64,000 bases of DNA from Haloarcula taiwanensis (GTDB lineage Archaea; Halobacteriota; Halobacteria; Halobacteriales; Haloarculaceae), in the NCBI GenBank assembly GCA_002844335.1, contig CP019154.1:2480001-2544000 (forward strand), read 5' to 3'. The position numbers were made by a program, and so were the translations under genes. The notes beneath the pieces are model-generated. The model searched no databases. It was not told where the DNA came from and was given only the letters and a program-made list of their open reading frames with translations. This document shows positions 30,415 to 40,527 of this stretch, piece by piece (position 1 is the stretch's first letter; each line of letters begins with the position of its first letter).

Positions 30415-31476
30415 TCAGGACTCTGTTTCAGCTGTCGAACTCGACGCGTTTGCCTCGTCGGTGTCAGTTGCCGGGTCCGAGAGCGCGCCGTCGCGAACAG
30501 CCATCCGGAGCCCGAACTCGGCGATATTACCGCCGTGTTCCGCCGTTCTAGCGAGGCTGTCGAGGGCGCGCGTGAGCCGGTAGTCGGCGTCACCGGACTC
30601 GAACAGCTGTCGGTCGAGACTGGTTATCCGCTCTCGAACGTCCCGGCGCGTGGCCAGTGTCTGTCGGGCGGTGTCGACACAGGCGTCGCCAATGATCACT
30701 CGGACAGCGTCCTCGACGACGGCGTGGACATCCTGTGCAATGCTGTCGAGGGCTGTGATGATACGCTCGTCGGGTTGGCCGTCGAGTCGGTCGGCGACGG
30801 TCCCGATGCGCTCGGCGTGATCGGCCACGCGTTCGAGTTCGTTCGCGGTCCCCCAGAGGGTGAACAGTTCGGGACGGGTCAGCCCGAGCGCGTCTATCTC
30901 GTCGAGGCGGGCCAGCCCGCGCTCGAAGTAGCGGTCTATCATGGCGTACAGCCGGTCGGCCTGCTCGTCGCGGTCGGCCCACCGGTCGCCGGTCGTCCCG
31001 GTCGTGAGCGCGGCCATCGCGTCCCGGTGCATCGACAGGGCGACGAACTGGAGCTGGCGGACCGACTGGCTGACGGACACCTCGCCAGCATCGAGCATCG
31101 TCCGGACCGTGACCTGTGACTCGGTCGCCTCAGCGACGGTCACACCTGTCAGGTTCCGGGTGACGCGTTCGATGGCCCGGTGTTGTTCGTCGCTGTAGCC
31201 ATCGGGGACTTCAAGGACGACAGATTCGACGCCAGCGGCGTAGGCCGCCCGCAACAGCTGCTCTATTTCCGCCGGGTCGTCGTTGCCGACTTCCAGTCTG
31301 AGGCGGTTCCGCGCCGTCGTCTGTGACTCAGGGGTCTGGATTACCAGGAGCCCGTCGATGTGCGTGTGGAGGTTCACCGTCGTTCCGGCCGTACAGTTCT
31401 CCGATTCGGCCCACTCTTTTGGGAGCGAAACGGTGTACGTGCCGCCGCCGACGGTCTGTATCTTTCGGGTTTCCAT
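30415..31476 (-). CDS. PhoU-domain regulator with N-terminal SpoVT/AbrB domain
   Basis: 353 residues. The first 45 form an AbrB-like swapped-hairpin (METRKIQTVGGGTYTVSLPKEWAESENCTAG), with potential DNA-binding ability. Then comes a linker and a PhoU-like helical domain (ANELERVADHAERIGTVADRL, DVRERITSLDRQLFESGDADYRLTRALDSLARTAEHGGNIAEF) with the acidic E/D-x-x-x-D/H sets that bind metal clusters. Fusions of this type are archaeal phosphate-signalling regulators; target unknown. It lies 2 nt after phoU and is the last pst operon gene. It is a paralogue of the divergent gene at 38405. Confidence 0.85.
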   Translation of the reverse strand: METRKIQTVGGGTYTVSLPKEWAESENCTAGTTVNLHTHIDGLLVIQTPESQTTARNRLRLEVGNDDPAEIEQLLRAAYAAGVESVVLEVPDGYSDEQHRAIERVTRNLTGVTVAEATESQVTVRTMLDAGEVSVSQSVRQLQFVALSMHRDAMAALTTGTTGDRWADRDEQADRLYAMIDRYFERGLARLDEIDALGLTRPELFTLWGTANELERVADHAERIGTVADRLDGQPDERIITALDSIAQDVHAVVEDAVRVIIGDACVDTARQTLATRRDVRERITSLDRQLFESGDADYRLTRALDSLARTAEHGGNIAEFGLRMAVRDGALSDPATDTDEANASSSTAETES

Positions 31477-31478
31477 AG

Positions 31479-32156
31479 CTAGTAAATGAGTTCTGAGTCG
31501 GTTTCGACCATGTACAGCGTGCGTGCCGCGATGTTGACCGCGTGGTCGCCGACGCGTTCGAGGTCCCGAACCGTCAACAGGAGCCGGGACACGTCGTCGA
31601 GGAGTTGCTCGACCGCCCAGCCGTCGTCGCCGTCGGCCTCCCGTTCGATGAGGTCCCGGGCGACGGTCTCGCTGGCCCGCTGGCAGAGCGCATCGAGCGC
31701 GTCGTCATCAGCCGCGATAGCGCGACAGTCCTCGACGGCTTCCAGTCGATAGGCGTCGATACTACGCTCGACCATGTCGGTGGCCTCGCGGCCGATAGTG
31801 TCGACGTCGACCTCGGGGGCAAGTCGACGGTCGGCCGACTGTGCGTAGGCCGCGAGGTTCGTGGCGAGGTCTCCCACGCGTTCAAGATCGGTGATTATCT
31901 TGAACGAGGCGGCGATAAAGCGGAGGTCGGTCGCGACCGGCTGCTGGAGAGCAAAGAGGTCGATACAGTCGGCTTCAAGGGCCAGATACAGCTCGTTTAT
32001 TTCGTTGTCACCGTCGATGACAGACTGCGCCATCTCCCGGTCGACGGTCCGGAGCGCAGTGAGCGCCGATTCGAGTCGCTCGACGACCAGATCGCCCATC
32101 CCGACCACGCCGTCCCGGAGTTCGTCCAGTTGTTGCTGGTACGACTCGCGCGACAT
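31479..32156 (-). CDS. phoU: Phosphate-signalling protein PhoU
   Basis: 225 residues, two tandem three-helix bundles. The first has QLDELRDGVVGMGDLVVERLESAL and ASFKIITDLERVGDLATNLAAY; the second ends with LLTVRDLERVGDHAVNIAARTLYM. The two E-R-x-G-D-x-A/H-x-N motifs supply the trinuclear metal sites of PhoU. In bacteria PhoU restrains Pst uptake; haloarchaea lack the usual PhoR/PhoB pair, so its partner may be the PstB ATPase itself. Sits 3 nt after pstB and 2 nt before the AbrB-PhoU gene. Confidence 0.93.
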   Translation of the reverse strand: MSRESYQQQLDELRDGVVGMGDLVVERLESALTALRTVDREMAQSVIDGDNEINELYLALEADCIDLFALQQPVATDLRFIAASFKIITDLERVGDLATNLAAYAQSADRRLAPEVDVDTIGREATDMVERSIDAYRLEAVEDCRAIAADDDALDALCQRASETVARDLIEREADGDDGWAVEQLLDDVSRLLLTVRDLERVGDHAVNIAARTLYMVETDSELIY

Positions 32157-32159
32157 GGG

Positions 32160-33101
32160 TCACCCGAACTTGCCGGTGATGTAGTCCTCGACGCGCTGGC
32201 TCTCGGGGTTCTCGAATATCTTGTCGGTGTCGTCGTACTCGACGAGTTCGCCGCCGGTGAGGAACACGGCCGTCTGGTCGGAAATGCGGGCCGCCTGCTG
32301 CATGTTGTGGGTGACGATGACGACCGTGTAGTCCTTCGACAGCTCCTCGACGAGGTCCTCGATTTTCGAGGTGGCGATGGGGTCCAGCGCCGAGGCCGGC
32401 TCGTCCATCAGGATGACCTCGGGGTCAACGGCCAGACAGCGCGCGATACAGAGGCGCTGTTGTTGCCCGCCCGAGAGGCCGAGCGCGTTGTCGTCCAGTC
32501 GGTCGCTAACCTCGTCCCACAGCGCGGCCTGCTTCAGCGAGCGCTCGACGAGTTCAGCCTCTGCCTCGGTGTCGTCGCGACCGAACAGGCGCGCGAGCAG
32601 GCCCTTGTTGATGTCGCCGTGCTTGCGCGGGCCATACGAGATGTTCTCCCGAATGGACTTCGGGAAGGGGTTGGGCGACTGAAAGACCATCCCGATACGC
32701 TTGCGCAGTTCGACGAGGTTGGCGTTGGGGTCGTAGATCTCGGTCCCTTCGAGTTCGACCGAGCCGTCGATGCGGGCGGCCTTGATGCGGTCGTTCATGC
32801 GGTTGAGACAGCGAAGGTACGTCGACTTGCCACAGCCGGATGGCCCGATAAGCGCCGTGACGCTGTTCTCGGGGATCTCCATCGAGACATCCTTCAGCGC
32901 GTGGTCATCACCGTACCACACGTCGAGGTTCTCGACCGAGAGCTTCGATTTGCCGTCGAAGTCGTACTGCCGCCACGCCTCGCGGATCCGCTCGTCGCTC
33001 TCGCCGGCCGTCGTCTCGGCGCTTGGCGAGGTGGTGTCGACTGTCTGTCCGCTGTTCGTTTGCGTGTCCGTGCTCGGCTCCGTGTTGATGCTATCACTCA
33101 T
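32160..33101 (-). CDS. pstB: Phosphate ABC transporter ATP-binding protein PstB
   Basis: 313 residues, about 50 longer than bacterial PstB owing to an N-terminal Ser/Thr/Glu-rich tail. Motifs: Walker [17 protein letters not shown]-loop [11 protein letters not shown], signature [13 protein letters not shown], Walker [15 protein letters not shown]-loop [15 protein letters not shown] is characteristic of PstB. It powers phosphate uptake as a dimer under PstC/PstA. Its first bases overlap the end of pstA by 8 nt, so the two are translationally coupled. Confidence 0.97.
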
Positions 33102-35748
33102 AGTTGAGTTTCCTCCGGAAGTATGTCCGCGCCGTGATACCGACTGCGTAGAACGTCAGCACGACGATCAGCAGAATAAACGCTGTTGCCCATCCCATCT
33201 GTGGCGACCCCGACACCCCGGCCGCGATGACGGCCCACACCTGCGTCGGCAGCGACGCCGAGGCCGAAAGCAAGGCGTCATTGACGATGAACGGTGGCCC
33301 CGAGACGAAGCGGAAGCCGTCGATGACGTCGACGGCGGCCGTCGCGTTCAGCGTCGAGCCGAGGACAAGGATGAGCGGGGCAGTCTCGCCAGCGATGCGG
33401 CCGACGCCGAGGATGACGCCGGTGATGACGCCCGGCATCGCCGCCGGAAGGACGACGCTTTTGATGGTCTCCCACTGGGTCACACCCAGTGCCGCGCTGG
33501 CGTCGCGGTACTCGTCGGGGACCGACTTGATTGACTCCCGCGAGGTGATGAGCACCAGCGGCAGGAGCATGAAGCCAAGCACCAGCATCCCGGCAAGCAG
33601 CGACTCGTCGCCGCCAAGCCGGGGAATCAGGAATGCTGCTCCGAACAGACCGAAGACGATGCTCGGCGTGGACCACAGCGCGTTTGTCGCGATTTCGACC
33701 ACCGAAGTGAATCGGCCCTGCTCGGCGTACTCGGTGAGGAACACTGCCGCACCAACACCCAGCGGGACGGCGAACAGCGTTGCGCCGATCACCAGCCACA
33801 CCGTGCCGATGATCGCAGGCACGATACCGCCGGGCTCGGCTCCCAGCGGAATGTAGGCCTGCATCACCATCGGCCACGAGAGGCTCCCCTCGTTGGCAAT
33901 GGAGACGCCGAGAACGTTGAACGATGTACCGGTAGCGGCTACGTGCAGGCCCACTAGCGCGGTGAAGCCGGCCGCACCGACGAGGCCGAGTCGCGTCTCC
34001 TCAGTCAGCAGGCGGCGGGTAATCGTCTCTTCGCTGGACCGCTTTGCAGCCGTGGTGAGCGTCGCCAGCGCGAGCGAGGCCACAGCGGCCCCGAGCGCGA
34101 CCGCAGGCACGAGATTTACCGGACCAACTCGCGGATTGATGCCGGCAACTGGCTGGAGCAGCAGCGTCGCCAGCAACAGCCCGAGTCCGCCGAACACCCC
34201 CAGCGTGAACAGCGGGGCCTCCCGCTGTGCGCTCTCCGCCAGCGTCGGCCCGTCGCTTGCGAGCACGCCGACGAGTGGGGAGACTGCGAGACCGCCCGCG
34301 GCGACCGATCCGGCGACGACAGCGGCGAATGCAACCGTCTCGTTGAGTGGGAGGCCGAACGGAGTCGGGCCGAAGGCGAGGAAAAAGCCGATGAGGACGA
34401 CCATCGCGAGAACTGCCGTCGGGACGGCCTGTCGGATCGAGCCGGCTCGGTCAGACTGGGTCCCGACGTTGCGGAGCGAGCCGAACGACCGGAAGAACGT
34501 GACCGCGAGCAATAGTGCCGGGAGGACAAGCAGCAGCGTCCCGACCGTCGTGCTGGGCGTCACTGCGAGCGCTGTATCGAGCGCACGTCCCTGTCGGTTG
34601 ACCTGGACAGTGTAGGTGTAGGCGTACCGCAGCGGGGTGCCGGTGACGAGCACGCTCGCAAACACCGCAGCGAGCGAACCAACCGCCGCCAGTGGGAGGA
34701 TCCGGAATAGCTGTCGCGCGCCAGTGTTCCAGTCAGTCGTGCCCGCAGGCGAACGAGCGAACTGGATTGTAGCCAGAAGAGCTGGCGACAGGAGGACCAG
34801 TGCCGTCAGCGCACCGATCGACAGTCCGTGGACGGCGTAGCCGATGCCCTTGATGGTCACGAACACGACGATTGTCGCCATCACAGCCACCATCAGGAAG
34901 GCGTTGAGGTTGATGACGAGGAAGGCCCCGTACTCGCGTCCCCGGGCACCGAACCCGGCGCGGCACTTCGCGGCCGACCAAGCCGACAGCAGCGTCCCGA
35001 CCAGGAGGAACACGGGGATGACCGCGCCGCCGGTGAAGCCACCGGAGAGCGTCTGCGGGCTCCACTGCCAGCCCACGCCGATGGTTCCGGTCACGATTGT
35101 CAGCCCGAGTGCGCCGACGACGATAGCCGTCGGGAGCGTCGAACCAAGGTCCTCACGAGGGAGGATCGCCAGCAGGAACAGGCCGACGCCGGCGACGGCG
35201 GCGGTGACAAGCCACAGGAGCGAGCCGAATCCGGCAAGGGAACCCCCGACGACGGCCCCCATTGCGAGGCCGAGCGCGCCGAGCGCGCCGCCAGAGAGCA
35301 GGCCGGCACTCATGTTCGGTTCCGTGTCCACGAGTTCGAGCCGGGAGGAGACACCGGCGGCAGTGATCGCCAGTGCCTCGACTAGCAACACGGTGCCCAG
35401 CAGTGTCGCCATCGTCACCGGAAGGGTCGCGGCAAGAGCAGTCAGCGCCACCGTCGAGATAACGAGGCCCAGCCCGATGCCGCGGACTCGCTGTGAAGTG
35501 ACCGGGACGACGTTGAGGAAAGAGGCAAGGCCAGTGATGCCGACGGCTCCGACGACGACGGCCAGCAGCGTTCCGAGGGCCGTGGTGAGGGCACTGCCGC
35601 TGGTCCCGGGCGGGACGAGGTTCACGAGCGTGACGAGCCCGAGCGTGAAGCCGACGACGCTGAGCGCTATCGCCGCATCGAGTCCGCGGTCGTAAATGTT
35701 CGAATCCGCACTGACGAGCTGATCCGTTGTCGCGTAAGCGTCACTCAT
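33094..35748 (-). CDS. pstA: Phosphate ABC transporter permease PstA with a large N-terminal membrane extension
   Basis: 884 residues from ATG 35748, about three times the normal PstA. Only the last ~305 residues (from about 578) are Pst[35 protein letters not shown], and the EAA coupling loop [20 protein letters not shown]. Residues 1-575 hold some 14-16 hydrophobic helices with short polar links ([38 protein letters not shown]), with no motif I know. The frame is uninterrupted and codon use does not change at the junction, so a real fusion. It overlaps pstC by ATGA and pstB by 8 nt. Confidence 0.9.
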
Positions 35749-36866
35749 TGTTGCCCCTTCAGTTTCCGTTGCATACGTCGCTCGATGTACTGCGAGACGA
35801 TGCTCATGCCGGCGACGATGACGAACAGCATGACACCGGCGACGAACAGCACGTCGACGGTGCTCTCCGAGGCGCTGCCGTACTGGGTCGCAATCAGGCT
35901 CGTCAGCGTCGCGTTGGCGTCGAAGATATCGAACAGCGGGTCGGCGAACTGTGTCCCCGAGGCCATGATGGCGGCGACGGCCATCGTCTCGCCGATAGCC
36001 CGGCCCAGCCCGAGGATGACGGCTGCGGAGATGCCCGAGAAGGCCGCCGGGATGGAGATGCTCTTCATCGTCTGCCACTCGGTCGCGCCCATCGCGACGG
36101 AGCCGTCACCCATCGACTGCGGGACGCTGGAGAGGGCGTCCTCGCCGACGGAGACGACCGTCGGCAGCGCCATCACGCCAACGACAACCCCGGCGATGAG
36201 GAAGCTTGCCCCGTCGTCGAGGAAGTTCGTCTGGATGAAGCCGTTGAGTACCTGGAAACCGATGAATCCGTAGACGATGGAGGGGATGCCAGCCAGAATC
36301 TCCACGCCGGGCTTGATGAGTTCCCGCAGGCGGTCGCTGGCGACCTCGGCGATAAATAGCGCGCCGAACAGACCCAGCGGGCCGGCGACTGCGCCCGCGA
36401 TGAGAGTGACGACTACCGTCGCCCAGATCATCGGGATCAGCGAGTACGCCCCGCTGAGTGGGTTCCAGTACGTCGAATCCGACGGCAGGACGGCGTCGAG
36501 CCAGAAGAACCAGCGAGCCGACCCGCCCTGTTCTGGAATCAGTAGCAGTCCAAGCCCGTGTTCGAGAAACGCTGGTAATGCGCTCGCGAACAGGAAGAAC
36601 GTAATAAACGCGACGGTCAGCACCGTCAAAATCGTCGCGACCAGCGTGAGCAGGCGTGCAACCTCGGCCTGATAGGTGACCCACCCGACCGCCGTGACGA
36701 ACACGAACGCGAGTAGCATCGGCAGCGCTATCGCCGGCCGAAACAGGAACACGAGAATCGTCGCCGCCAGCGTCGTCGCTATCGCGCCGACCGCAAGCGC
36801 TGCGCCGTCGATTCTGCCCCCGCCCGACACCGACTCACTCTCCGTCGTTGGTATGTCTTCTGTCAT
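35745..36866 (-). CDS. pstC: Phosphate ABC transporter permease PstC
   Basis: 373 residues: two or three extra N-terminal helices (ATTLAATILVFLFRPAIALPMLLAFVF region), then the six-helix permease core. The permease includes LSGAYSLIPMIWATVVVTLIAG, LIKPGVEILAGIPSIVYGFIG and the EAA loop ALSSVPQSMGDGSVAMGATE, ending in VILGLGRAIGETMAVAAIMA. Pairs with PstA in the membrane to form the phosphate path. Its stop overlaps the pstA start by four bases; it begins 52 nt after pstS. The upstream hydrophobic extension is longer than in bacteria, though less extreme than in PstA. Confidence 0.95.
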   Translation of the reverse strand: MTEDIPTTESESVSGGGRIDGAALAVGAIATTLAATILVFLFRPAIALPMLLAFVFVTAVGWVTYQAEVARLLTLVATILTVLTVAFITFFLFASALPAFLEHGLGLLLIPEQGGSARWFFWLDAVLPSDSTYWNPLSGAYSLIPMIWATVVVTLIAGAVAGPLGLFGALFIAEVASDRLRELIKPGVEILAGIPSIVYGFIGFQVLNGFIQTNFLDDGASFLIAGVVVGVMALPTVVSVGEDALSSVPQSMGDGSVAMGATEWQTMKSISIPAAFSGISAAVILGLGRAIGETMAVAAIMASGTQFADPLFDIFDANATLTSLIATQYGSASESTVDVLFVAGVMLFVIVAGMSIVSQYIERRMQRKLKGQQ

Positions 36867-36918: not shown

Positions 36919-38073
36919 TTACACCTGGTCGGGGAGCTTGGCGCGCTGTTCTTCCTGACGGCGCGCACCGAGCTTGAAGTAGTTGTTCGGCGCGACGAAG
37001 GTGTCCTGACCGAAGTCGGACAGGATCATGTTGATGACCGCGGCTTCCTTCTTCGAGGTGCCTTCCCACGTGTACATGTGGAGGTCACGCGAGAGGGGAT
37101 AGGCCTTCGAGTCCAGACCGTTCTGGTCGTCCTGATAGCTGTAGGTCGTCCCTTCCCACTCCAGGGCGACGGGGGCCAGGCCGTCGGTGTCGATGAACGC
37201 CAGCGCGAGGTAGCTGATGGCGTTGTCGGCCTGTGCGATGGCCTGTGCGAGGCGCTGGTTCTGGCCGTAGCGGTTGGCGACAGAGGTGTCCTCCTCGGGG
37301 TTGCCGAAGACGTTGGAGACGAAAGAGGTCCGGGTACCCGAGCCTTTGACACGGCCGAGGACCTGAATCTCGCGGTCCGGACCGCCGAGTTCGCTCCAGT
37401 TGGTGAGTTCACCTTTGTAGAGGGCTTTGAGCTGGTCCCCGGTAATCTTCTCGACGCCGGCGTCGGCGATTTCCTGGGAGACCACGAGCGGCTGGCCGTC
37501 GACCCCGACGACGTGGTCGACGAACTGCTCGTAGGAGTCACGGTCCGGGAGTTCGTCCTCGACGTTCCCGGAGGAATTACCGATGTCGTTCTGGCCGTTC
37601 ATGACCTTCTCGACGCCGGTCCCGGAGTGGGAGAGGCCGACGGTGAACTGGAACGGCGGCCCCTCCTCGCCGCCGGCTTCGAAGCCGTAGAGGCCGGCCC
37701 AGTAATCGGCGAGGTTCTGGTCCGTGTCGATGTCGTACTCGCCGTGGGGCCAGTACTCGCTGTCGCTGGCCGGGCGGTTGGCGTTCCAGTAGGACGCCGC
37801 CGTGTTGGCGATGGGGTACACCGTCGAGGAGCCGCCCGATTCGAGCGGGCCGACGCTCTCCTGGCTGGAGCTTTCGGTCGCTTCCGTCTCCGCCGAGTCC
37901 ATCTCCGTCGACGCCGCCTCGGTGTCCGCGCTCCCGCCGGAGCTTCCGTCGGAATCGGATCCGTCGCTGCCGCTGGAACAGCCGGCGATTGCAGCGATAC
38001 TGGTCGCACCCGTTGTTGCGATGAATTTCCGCCGCGATACGAGGTCTGACAGCCCGTCTGGATCGTGCGCCAT
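36919..38073 (-). CDS. pstS: Phosphate-binding lipoprotein PstS
   Basis: 384 residues from ATG 38073 (another in-frame ATG one codon earlier). A twin-arginine motif SRRKF at 13-17 is followed by a hydrophobic run and the lipobox AIAGC, with Cys 32 as lipidation site: a Tat-exported lipoprotein, as usual in haloarchaea. A Ser/Asp/Glu-rich linker runs to about residue 75. The binding domain has GGSSTVYPIANTAA (phosphate loop), SHSGTGVEKVM and VKGSGTRTSFVSNV, the two Ser/Thr-rich loops that grip phosphate. First gene of the pst operon, with a TTATTA box about 26 nt upstream. Confidence 0.95.
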   Translation of the reverse strand: MAHDPDGLSDLVSRRKFIATTGATSIAAIAGCSSGSDGSDSDGSSGGSADTEAASTEMDSAETEATESSSQESVGPLESGGSSTVYPIANTAASYWNANRPASDSEYWPHGEYDIDTDQNLADYWAGLYGFEAGGEEGPPFQFTVGLSHSGTGVEKVMNGQNDIGNSSGNVEDELPDRDSYEQFVDHVVGVDGQPLVVSQEIADAGVEKITGDQLKALYKGELTNWSELGGPDREIQVLGRVKGSGTRTSFVSNVFGNPEEDTSVANRYGQNQRLAQAIAQADNAISYLALAFIDTDGLAPVALEWEGTTYSYQDDQNGLDSKAYPLSRDLHMYTWEGTSKKEAAVINMILSDFGQDTFVAPNNYFKLGARRQEEQRAKLPDQV

Positions 38074-38404
38074 CACCAGAACCCAGCGGGACAGGTAATA
38101 AGTAACCTGCTAAGATAGCTATATCTATTGGTGTATTACTATATAGATATGGTATGGCAAAAACTCACAAACAGGTAGACATATAGCAGCGAATATGCCG
38201 CTATCATGCCGTCAGAGCCCCGAATATGACCGATACTGATGAGCCGCTAGATATAGCATTTTCACCGGTTTGAATTACCTATACCGGCGAATATCGTCGT
38301 ATCATCGGCGTGTAGCCGGACAATATGTCCTCAAATATTAGAGCTCCGATACAGTATATAGATATGAGTGGATTTATACCATCCCGTGAACGAGTGCCAG
38401 TCAC
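38074..38404. promoter_or_regulatory. AT-rich divergent promoter region of pstS and the PhoU-like gene, with repeated motif
   Basis: A 331-bp gene-free stretch, strikingly AT-rich for this genome. TATATAGATATG occurs twice as an exact 12-nt direct repeat, 38140-38151 and 38355-38366; the second copy ends just upstream of the TTTATA box (38373-38378) of the PhoU-like gene. Near pstS, AAGATAGCTATATCTATT (38112-38129) has overlapping inverted arms. These are good candidates for phosphate-responsive operator sites. The pstS TATA box is TTATTA on the minus strand at 38097-38102. Confidence 0.6.
38373..38378 (+). promoter_or_regulatory. TATA box of the divergent PhoU-like gene
   Basis: TTTATA centred 29-30 nt upstream of ATG 38405, with no room for a Shine-Dalgarno leader. 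It marks a leaderless transcript. Confidence 0.6.
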
Positions 38405-39409
38405 ATGGAGACACGCAAGGTCCAGGTGACAGGCGGGTCGACGTACACCGTCTCCCTCCCCAAAGAGTGGGCAACAGAGAACGACGTGAGCGCTGGCAGC
38501 GTCGTCGAATTCCACGCTGAACGGGACCTACTGTTGCTCGCTCCGCAGCGGGACAACGGCCGCGTAGAAGGGAGTCTCGACGTGGAAGGGCTCGAAAACA
38601 GGCACGAACTCACGCGGGCGGTAATGACGATGTACGTCAGCGGCTTCGACATCATCCAACTCGAAGCGACCCGGATCACGGCCGAGCAGCGACGCATCAT
38701 CCGCGATGCGACCCAGGGACTGGTCGGTCTGGAGATGATCGAGGAGACGACGGACCGGGTCGTCCTGCAGGACCTGCTCGATTCATCGGAACTGTCGGTC
38801 CACAACGCGATCACACGAATGCGACTGGTCTCGTTGACGATGCTCTCCGATGCTGTCGAGGCGCTCATCGAGGACGACGACAACCTCGCAGCGGACGTGA
38901 TGCAACGCGACGACGACGTGGACCGGCTCTGGTACATGGTTTCGCGCGTGTTCCGAACCGTCCTCCGGAACCCGACGGCGGCTAACGAGATCGGCTTCCC
39001 GCGCGAGACCGTCTTCGACTTCCAGTCCAGCGCCCGCCAATTAGAGCGTATCGCTGACCACGCGACCAAGATCGCTAGCCTCTCCCAAGAGATTGGGGAG
39101 ATAACTGGCGAAACCGCCGACCTGCTCGATCAGCTGGAAACCGAAGCCATTGCCGTCCCCGAAACAGCGATGGACGCACTGTTGACCGAAGACTCCGACG
39201 AGGCCGTCGAACTGGCAAACGAGGCCCGGAGTCAGATCCCTGACGTCGACGAGACCGCTCGCGAAGTCGACGGCCAGATCCGCGAGTTCGACCCACAGAG
39301 CGCGCAGGTGCTCGGGCTCGTCGTCGACTCACTGTCCCGGACCGCCGACTACGGCGGCAACATCGCCGAGAGCGCGCTCCAGAAAGCCGCACCGCGGCCA
39401 CAATCCTGA
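38405..39409 (+). CDS. AbrB-PhoU family phosphate regulator, divergent from pstS
   Basis: 334 residues, with the same plan as the operon's last gene: an AbrB-like N-terminus (METRKVQVTGGSTYTVSLPKEWATENDVSAG), a linker, then PhoU-like helices with FQSSARQLERIADHATKIASL and LGLVVDSLSRTADYGGNIAES. Its position back to back with pstS, sharing an AT-rich promoter with a repeated motif, makes it the likeliest local transcriptional regulator of the pst operon. This is inference, but the AbrB domain offers DNA binding and the PhoU part a phosphate-state sensor. Confidence 0.85.
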   Translation: METRKVQVTGGSTYTVSLPKEWATENDVSAGSVVEFHAERDLLLLAPQRDNGRVEGSLDVEGLENRHELTRAVMTMYVSGFDIIQLEATRITAEQRRIIRDATQGLVGLEMIEETTDRVVLQDLLDSSELSVHNAITRMRLVSLTMLSDAVEALIEDDDNLAADVMQRDDDVDRLWYMVSRVFRTVLRNPTAANEIGFPRETVFDFQSSARQLERIADHATKIASLSQEIGEITGETADLLDQLETEAIAVPETAMDALLTEDSDEAVELANEARSQIPDVDETAREVDGQIREFDPQSAQVLGLVVDSLSRTADYGGNIAESALQKAAPRPQS

Positions 39410-39451: not shown

Positions 39452-40237
39452 TTAGCGTGTCGAAACGATGCAGTGGCGACGATGCCGCCTGAGCGTTTCG
39501 AGGCACGCGACGGTGTCAGCGAGTGCCGGACACGTCACCGGACAGTCGTCGTAGAGATACCGAACGAGACTGGTTCCGTCGACACCGGAGAGAGCGGCGG
39601 TCGACCGACCGTGAAGCTGTTGCTGGCGGGTCGCTGCCACTGCCTCGCACTCGCTTTCGATCTCGGCGAGCTGATTGTCGATGCTGTCGAGTCGGGCCGG
39701 GTCAGTCGTTCTGCGTGCGTTCGCACCGAGTGCGGCCCCGCGGCGTTCACAGTTGTCAAGCGTTGCTCGCACTGACTGTAACGACTCCCGCTCGCGTTCG
39801 AGCGCCGGGAGCAGCGTCTCGCGCTCGTCGCGTGCTCTCTCACTTGCGGTTAGCAGCGCCTCGTACAATTGTGGAGTCAGGCGCGTTCCCGTGGCGATCT
39901 GCGTGCCGAGTTCCGGGCCGAACTCCATCGACATGTTGGCTTCCAGCGAGTCATCGTACTCGGCTTCGAAATGTGGCACAGCCATAACCGTCTCTCGGTA
40001 GGCTTCCCTGACGGCACGCAGGTTCGTATCGGGTTTCGGCTGCCGGGCACTGAGCGCCGACATCCCTCCCCCAGATGTGTCGACAGTGCCTGCGGCTCGT
40101 GCCGGCGGCTCGATAGATACAAGCTGGGTCCGAAAGCGCCGGAACGCCGTCAGTTCAGCCTCGACACAGTCGATTTCTCGTTGAACGACAGCGAGCGCCT
40201 GCTCGGTTCGCGGCTGGCTTGTCTCGGTGTTAGACAC
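39452..40237 (-). CDS. Coiled-coil protein, haloarchaeal DUF7260-like, unknown function
   Basis: 261 residues, no membrane segment. The first 45 residues (EQALAVVQREIDCVEAELTAFRRF) and the stretch 130-215 (LYEALLTASERARDERETLLPALERERESLQ, DPARLDSIDNQLAEIESECEAVAATRQQQL) are coiled-coil-like. A C-terminal segment has four Cys (DDCPVTCPALADTVACLE) and His-rich ending. It matches a recurrent haloarchaeal protein type of unknown role. The 290-bp gap upstream (40238-40527) has a TATTTTATATG patch at 40276-40286 and no gene I can support. Confidence 0.6.
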   Translation of the reverse strand: MSNTETSQPRTEQALAVVQREIDCVEAELTAFRRFRTQLVSIEPPARAAGTVDTSGGGMSALSARQPKPDTNLRAVREAYRETVMAVPHFEAEYDDSLEANMSMEFGPELGTQIATGTRLTPQLYEALLTASERARDERETLLPALERERESLQSVRATLDNCERRGAALGANARRTTDPARLDSIDNQLAEIESECEAVAATRQQQLHGRSTAALSGVDGTSLVRYLYDDCPVTCPALADTVACLETLRRHRRHCIVSTR

Positions 40238-40527
40238 GGAACACTCAGCCGGAGTGTTTGCTCTCGTCGTATAGGTATTTTATATGTTCGCTATATAGAC
40301 GACCGTATCCCTACCGGTGAAGTCGGCAGTGGTCCGCTACGATCAGCGCGACACTTCGCTGCCAGCAACAGGTGCCGGCAGTCCGTCGACTCACGCCGTC
40401 CGCAACGGATGCACTTTTCCCGAGTGGGAGACTACGACCTGCTGGTGGCGATGACGAGATGTTACCCCCGCTGAGCCCCTTGTGACGATGCACTATTCCT
40501 GAGCCACCATTTCACCCCGAACAACAG

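Follow-up and report, generated by a model that had tools for sequence, protein, structure and literature searches.

A conserved palindromic element at set spacings in Haloarcula phosphate promoters, a probable haloarchaeal pho-box

The DNA analyzed here is a 64,000-nucleotide stretch of the Haloarcula taiwanensis genome (contig CP019154.1, positions 2,480,001 to 2,544,000; hereafter the window), in which a minus-strand operon with the gene order pstS, pstC, pstA, pstB, phoU and a second AbrB-PhoU gene faces away from a plus-strand gene at 38405. The gap between pstS and this divergent gene is, as the preliminary description had stated, an AT-rich island (43% GC vs. 65% for the window). The features of the locus are as follows.

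30499-31476, minus strand: second AbrB-PhoU protein, closing the pst operon directly after phoU
31479-36866, minus strand: rest of the pst operon (pstC, pstA, pstB, phoU)
31479-32156, minus strand: phoU (Pfam)
32160-33101, minus strand: pstB, named from its translation
within 33094-36078, minus strand: pstA, named from its translation
35745-36866, minus strand: pstC, named from its translation
36919-38073, minus strand: pstS, phosphate-binding protein (ATG at 38073, alternative GTG at 38076; Pfam PBP_like_2)
38099-38112, minus strand: pstS core promoter TAGCAGGTTACTTA (pattern TAGYAGNNTAYTTA), containing the presumed TATA box
38119-38126, unstranded: degenerate element CTATATCT, 20 bp nearer pstS, at a position used by other genera
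38139-38146, unstranded: palindrome CTATATAG, 40 bp upstream of the pstS core promoter
38355-38361, plus strand: TATATAG, the element copy in the promoter of the AbrB-PhoU gene, at -50 relative to the ATG (12-mer at 38355-38366)
38373-38378, plus strand: putative TATA box TTTATA of the AbrB-PhoU gene, at -32 to -27, which would fit a leaderless transcript
38405-39409, plus strand: AbrB-PhoU fusion (Pfam), putative one-component phosphate regulator, divergent to pstS
39452-40237, minus strand: DUF7260 gene (Pfam DUF7260, 1.7e-66), candidate phosphate-regulon member
40291-40298, unstranded: element CTATATAG before the DUF7260 gene, in the layout CTATATAG-N4-CATATAAA

The divergent gene does encode the fusion of a MazE/AbrB-type domain with PhoU that had been proposed for it: its product carries an N-terminal MazE_antitoxin match (Pfam, 6.2e-11, residues 7-51), which identifies the AbrB/MazE-type domain, and a PhoU domain (Pfam, 5.7e-23, residues 136-225), with PDB PhoU chains 1t72 and 4q25 also matched. 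Across 81 sequences, AbrB residues 2-20 are almost invariant. The genome contains five matches to this protein, one being the protein that closes the present pst operon and another an 89% identical paralog that lies divergent to a pstS gene followed by a pstC-like gene (contig C1, near 2.00 Mb). The pst2 operon (L033) has the same divergent layout as pst1, with its own AbrB-PhoU gene, and both pst promoters contain the element described below. Among named relatives, Haloarcula species are nearest, with the best listed orthologs 99% identical; the named-relative set used here comprises 80 loci kept out of 230, with Halobacterium salinarum outside these 80.

The preliminary description had drawn attention to a 12-mer, TATATAGATATG, present twice in the gap. 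Both copies are exact and on the plus strand (38140-38151 and 38355-38366), the first upstream of the pstS core promoter and the second beside the regulator's TATA box, ending 6 bp before TTTATA. Even when two mismatches are tolerated, the window contains no third copy (0 of 100 shuffles with at least two matches), and in the 3.72 Mb genome the exact 12-mer is found only twice, both times in this gap, which counts against its being common in unrelated AT-rich gaps. Because direct 12-mer repeats arise in 125 of 20,000 dinucleotide shuffles of the gap (p ~0.006), the repeat by itself is suggestive only; it is conservation, and not the repeat itself, that makes the element convincing. Of the 15 closest loci, counting the own genome, all 15 keep the full 12-mer on the regulator side and 2 keep it on the pstS side, so we take the shared unit to be a 7-8 bp core. 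The full 12-mer was accordingly rejected as a functional unit, since its last five bases are not conserved on the pstS side, where their agreement is mostly chance. What is conserved is CTATATAG near pstS and TATATAGAT near the regulator gene. Two related sites had been missed earlier, namely the near-copy CTATATCT, 20 bp from CTATATAG, and the CTATATAG at 40291-40298. Looping via a fixed distance between the copies was rejected, as this distance is 215 bp here vs. about 110 to 370 bp elsewhere.

Aligning 29 gaps from the genus reveals two long conserved runs inside the gap, one at 38139-38146 (CTATATAG) and one at 38353-38378 (the AbrB-PhoU promoter block), with a few single columns elsewhere conserved as well. 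Within the second run, TATATAG lies 11 bp before TTTATA, whose own distance from the ATG would fit a leaderless AbrB-PhoU transcript. With gene starts taken from the protein match, 43 of 59 loci, representing 13 of 24 genera, have the element at -53 to -45 of AbrB-PhoU, compared with a mean of 0.3 and a maximum of 4 loci and 3 genera in 1000 shuffles. The exact element is missing at AbrB-PhoU in the other 11 of the 24 genera, and several Natrialbaceae carry TCTATAGA at this promoter instead. In the named set, where one locus has 6 bp of upstream sequence only and four matches do not begin at ATG, 61 of the 80 loci have the element at -55 to -44.

We also searched for the combined layout TATATAG-N10-12-TTTAT, which has three matches in the own genome, all in the two pst gaps (reversed control 1), and 105 matches in 60 haloarchaeal genomes, own included, vs. 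46 for the reversed control. The three spacing classes, compared against 73 closer AbrB-PhoU protein matches, behave differently across these 60 genomes. Matches with N11 lie at most 80 bp upstream of an AbrB-PhoU gene in 52 of 57 cases (the distance in G053 being uncertain, with a protein match that starts at residue 15), and one further N11 match precedes a weakly pstS-like gene (L115). For N12, 12 of 20 matches are on the pstS side of the AbrB-PhoU gap, and for N10 none of 28 precedes any of the AbrB-PhoU genes compared. Since the pattern matches are mostly orthologs, these counts speak for conservation and specificity, not for independent events.

The N10 matches were rejected as phosphate promoters, given that none adjoins any of the AbrB-PhoU genes compared and that their downstream frames are varied, some being integrases by eye. 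At four loci (L081, L087, L090, L119) the N10 layout stands before frames that look tyrosine-recombinase-like by eye, perhaps marking a different promoter type. We likewise set aside an N12 type, TATATAGCTGTTCGATACATTTAT, which precedes a small zinc-finger-like frame in both cases examined (L101, L102); this sequence recurs in six Haloarcula genomes, in one of them with a base change.

On the pstS side, the core promoter pattern TAGYAGNNTAYTTA has two matches genome-wide, before pstS1 and pstS2 (reversed control 0). Of the named loci, 78 have 250 bp or more of upstream sequence; an exact pstS core facing away from AbrB-PhoU is found in 42 of these and absent from 36, and all 42 of the former have CTATATA or TATATAG upstream of the core. 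The element-to-core spacings at these sites are 20 bp (13 sites), 29 bp (1), 39 bp (22), 40 bp (6), 47 bp (1) and 49 bp (7). With a looser core and a wider, partly redundant set in which some genomes appear twice, 79 of 80 cases have the element within 60 bp (the miss being L031), at spacings that cluster near 20, 30, 39 and 48 bp. The distinct spacings (18, 20, 22, 29, 30, 38, 39, 40, 47 and 49 bp), each counted once, show a stronger period near 10 bp than random spacings do (p = 0.0016), a value that treats spacings 1-2 bp apart as separate, with most of the 39s representing one inherited state. Because the spacings are thus partly inherited or near-duplicate, the evidence amounts to four preferred positions about 9.5-10 bp apart, and these steps of about 10 bp are suggestive of helical phasing of the element relative to the pstS core. 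In the window itself, pstS has the element at 40 bp from the core and the near-copy CTATATCT at 20 bp.

An automatic search for divergent pstS-like starts succeeded at 41 of 59 loci, with two of the 41 frames looking spurious. The exact element is absent at three pstS-like genes (L140, L146, L153), the starts of L146 and L153 being uncertain. Two genomes with distant AbrB-PhoU matches only, G042 (where the pstS match is itself weak) and G043, have pstS-like promoters that lack the exact core and element nearby, too few cases of joint loss to bear on the identity of the binder. A CTATATAG in the pstS2-pstC2 gap of the own genome is not relied on, as a site is present in that stretch at only one of seven second-copy loci from named congeners (L249).

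Taken alone, CTATATAG is too unspecific to serve as a genome-wide regulon marker: its 13 sites are no enrichment over the reversed control (20), and several of them adjoin genes with no evident link to phosphate. One of the 13 precedes the gene for a calcineurin-like phosphoesterase, behind which lies a polyphosphate kinase gene (ppk; L065/L124, contig C2, 302588), and another precedes the DUF7260 gene in the window. At L066 (contig C2, 477286), CTATATAG separates another AbrB-PhoU gene from a divergent gene with weak HTH matches. The phosphoesterase-ppk and DUF7260 promoters have in common a third layout, CTATATAG-N4-CATATAAA; the ppk and DUF7260 genes themselves were identified by Pfam in the own genome only. 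Its pattern TATATANNNNNCATATAA gives 26 matches in the 60 genomes, 23 of them at the two expected loci, vs. 3 for the reversed control: 12 (in 12 genomes) are 1.84-1.88 kb from an AbrB-PhoU start, which is the DUF7260 position in the own genome, and 11 stand before a phosphoesterase gene (11 of 24 such loci examined), with one of the rest at a contig edge and two elsewhere. Among named loci, CTATATAG was found about 1.9 kb from the AbrB-PhoU start in 6 of 12, all in the nearest clade, with two others ending earlier. On the sequence evidence, the N11 and CATATAA layouts are in Haloarcula almost restricted to the AbrB-PhoU, phosphoesterase-ppk and DUF7260 promoters, and DUF7260 is possibly a phosphate-starvation protein of uncharacterised function.

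Judged from the DNA, the element is a conserved sequence with the core CTATATAG and set spacings to TATA boxes. Our best reading, which we hold to be probable, is that it forms the upstream pho-box operator of haloarchaeal phosphate promoters and is probably bound by AbrB-PhoU. A dimeric DNA-binding protein would occupy the palindrome upstream of the TATA box, would lie on one helix face relative to the basal transcription machinery, and would raise transcription under phosphate shortage. As binder, the AbrB-PhoU protein encoded beside the element, or its paralog at pst2, would be likeliest, with the AbrB domain reading the DNA, the PhoU domain receiving a phosphate or Pst-transporter signal, and the protein controlling its own gene as well as pst. 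Archaeal activators usually act from just upstream of the TATA box. It is because of this activator-type position, the reports from H. salinarum discussed below and the invariant AbrB residues that we regard AbrB-PhoU as the likely binder and activation at low phosphate as the likely effect. A counterpoint to a single binding mode is that the element-to-TATA distance is 11 bp at AbrB-PhoU, 14 or 34 bp at pstS, and 6 bp at ppk and DUF7260.

The preliminary description had seen in the gap a self-contained phosphate switch in which AbrB-PhoU regulates both itself and the pst operon. The switch gains from the presence of the same core at set TATA distances in both divergent promoters, but "self-contained" has to be given up: pst2 with its own AbrB-PhoU, phosphoesterase-ppk and DUF7260 also carry the element, and there are five AbrB-PhoU paralogs. 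A broader proposal, which we judge equally apt to prove right or wrong, is a compact regulon under a one-component PhoU-DNA-reader, including ppk, the phosphoesterase and DUF7260, in which the CTATATAG operator, upstream of the pstS TATA box, would have shifted in evolution mainly by whole helix turns (about 20, 30, 40 and 50 bp).

The alternative that survives best, unlikely but to be taken seriously, is that some other transcription factor binds the element, which would still be a genuine phosphate operator, with AbrB-PhoU just a target or acting at another level. A PAS-domain protein near one such site and, on contig C2, the protein with weak HTH matches encoded divergently from an AbrB-PhoU gene would be candidates; the element-bearing ppk operon is far from the 38405 gene in the own genome. 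Against this, the AbrB domain is almost invariant, the N11 sites stand directly before AbrB-PhoU genes in 52 of 57 cases, and an AbrB-PhoU gene is found no more than 4 kb away at 12 of the 24 phosphoesterase loci examined, all of which favors AbrB-PhoU itself as the binder.

Considerably less probable is the reading of TATATA as a second TATA box from which these promoters would start an alternative transcript. The sequence would make a plausible archaeal TATA box, and from -50 it would direct a start about 23 nt before the ATG, but a TATA box needs neither the clustering of pstS-core spacings near 20, 30, 39 and 48 bp nor, on the pstS side, an 8-bp palindrome whose terminal C and G are mostly conserved. 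The leaderless transcript reported for the Haloferax pst operon HVO_2375-2378 (PMC6560208) fits the downstream TATA box. Chance repetition within AT-rich DNA, or descent of both copies from one duplicated promoter, would agree with the gap shuffles and with the loss of the full 12-mer next to pstS in all but 2 of 15 loci, but is very hard to credit when the 7-8 bp core is kept at both places and most of the gap is not, and when that core is conserved across many genera under a sharp spacing rule.

With the element read as a pho-box operator, the two-copy repeat becomes a testable regulon model for Haloarcula phosphate control, phosphoesterase-ppk and DUF7260 are named as two further candidate targets, and a simple helix-phasing prediction follows from the pstS spacings.

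The bacterial PHO box likewise consists of repeated sites upstream of pst promoters, which serve the response to phosphate shortage and are read by PhoB. In bacteria the reading is done by a two-component pair, PhoR-PhoB, and PhoU does not itself read DNA. By arrangement, the Haloarcula element may be likened to the PHO box in its repeated sites upstream of pst promoters; it differs in that PhoU and AbrB domains are joined in one protein. PhoU coupled directly to DNA would, if true, depart from the bacterial PhoR-PhoB scheme.

Closer to Haloarcula, pho-boxes in the pst1 and pst2 promoters of Halobacterium salinarum R1 are reportedly the subject of Furtwaengler et al. 2010 (Mol Microbiol 76:378); our literature search, which had that paper outside its reach, found no description of the element or its spacing. 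According to PMC6560208, the pho-boxes in both pst promoters of H. salinarum are essential for upregulation and are described as binding motifs of PhoU regulators. By description, the present elements are alike in belonging to the promoters of two haloarchaeal pst operons. PMC6560208 also reports that in early phosphate starvation a Haloferax volcanii sRNA132 mutant has lower transcripts of both pst operons and of polyphosphate kinase, and in summarising the phosphate stimulon of H. salinarum it names no ppk, which counts against ppk membership. PhoU expression is reported to be up in H. salinarum under phosphate starvation (PMC11218638). PhoU2 of Haloferax volcanii (HVO_2374) is syntenic with pst1 and likely, from this context, orthologous to the 38405 gene; it differs in that none of the available text of PMC6267482 describes an operator. 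That haloarchaeal pst operons have pho-boxes together with PhoU regulators is in essence a published idea; the additions here are the spacing across the order, the promoter of the regulator itself, and the ppk and DUF7260 genes, of which the 2010 paper may cover part.
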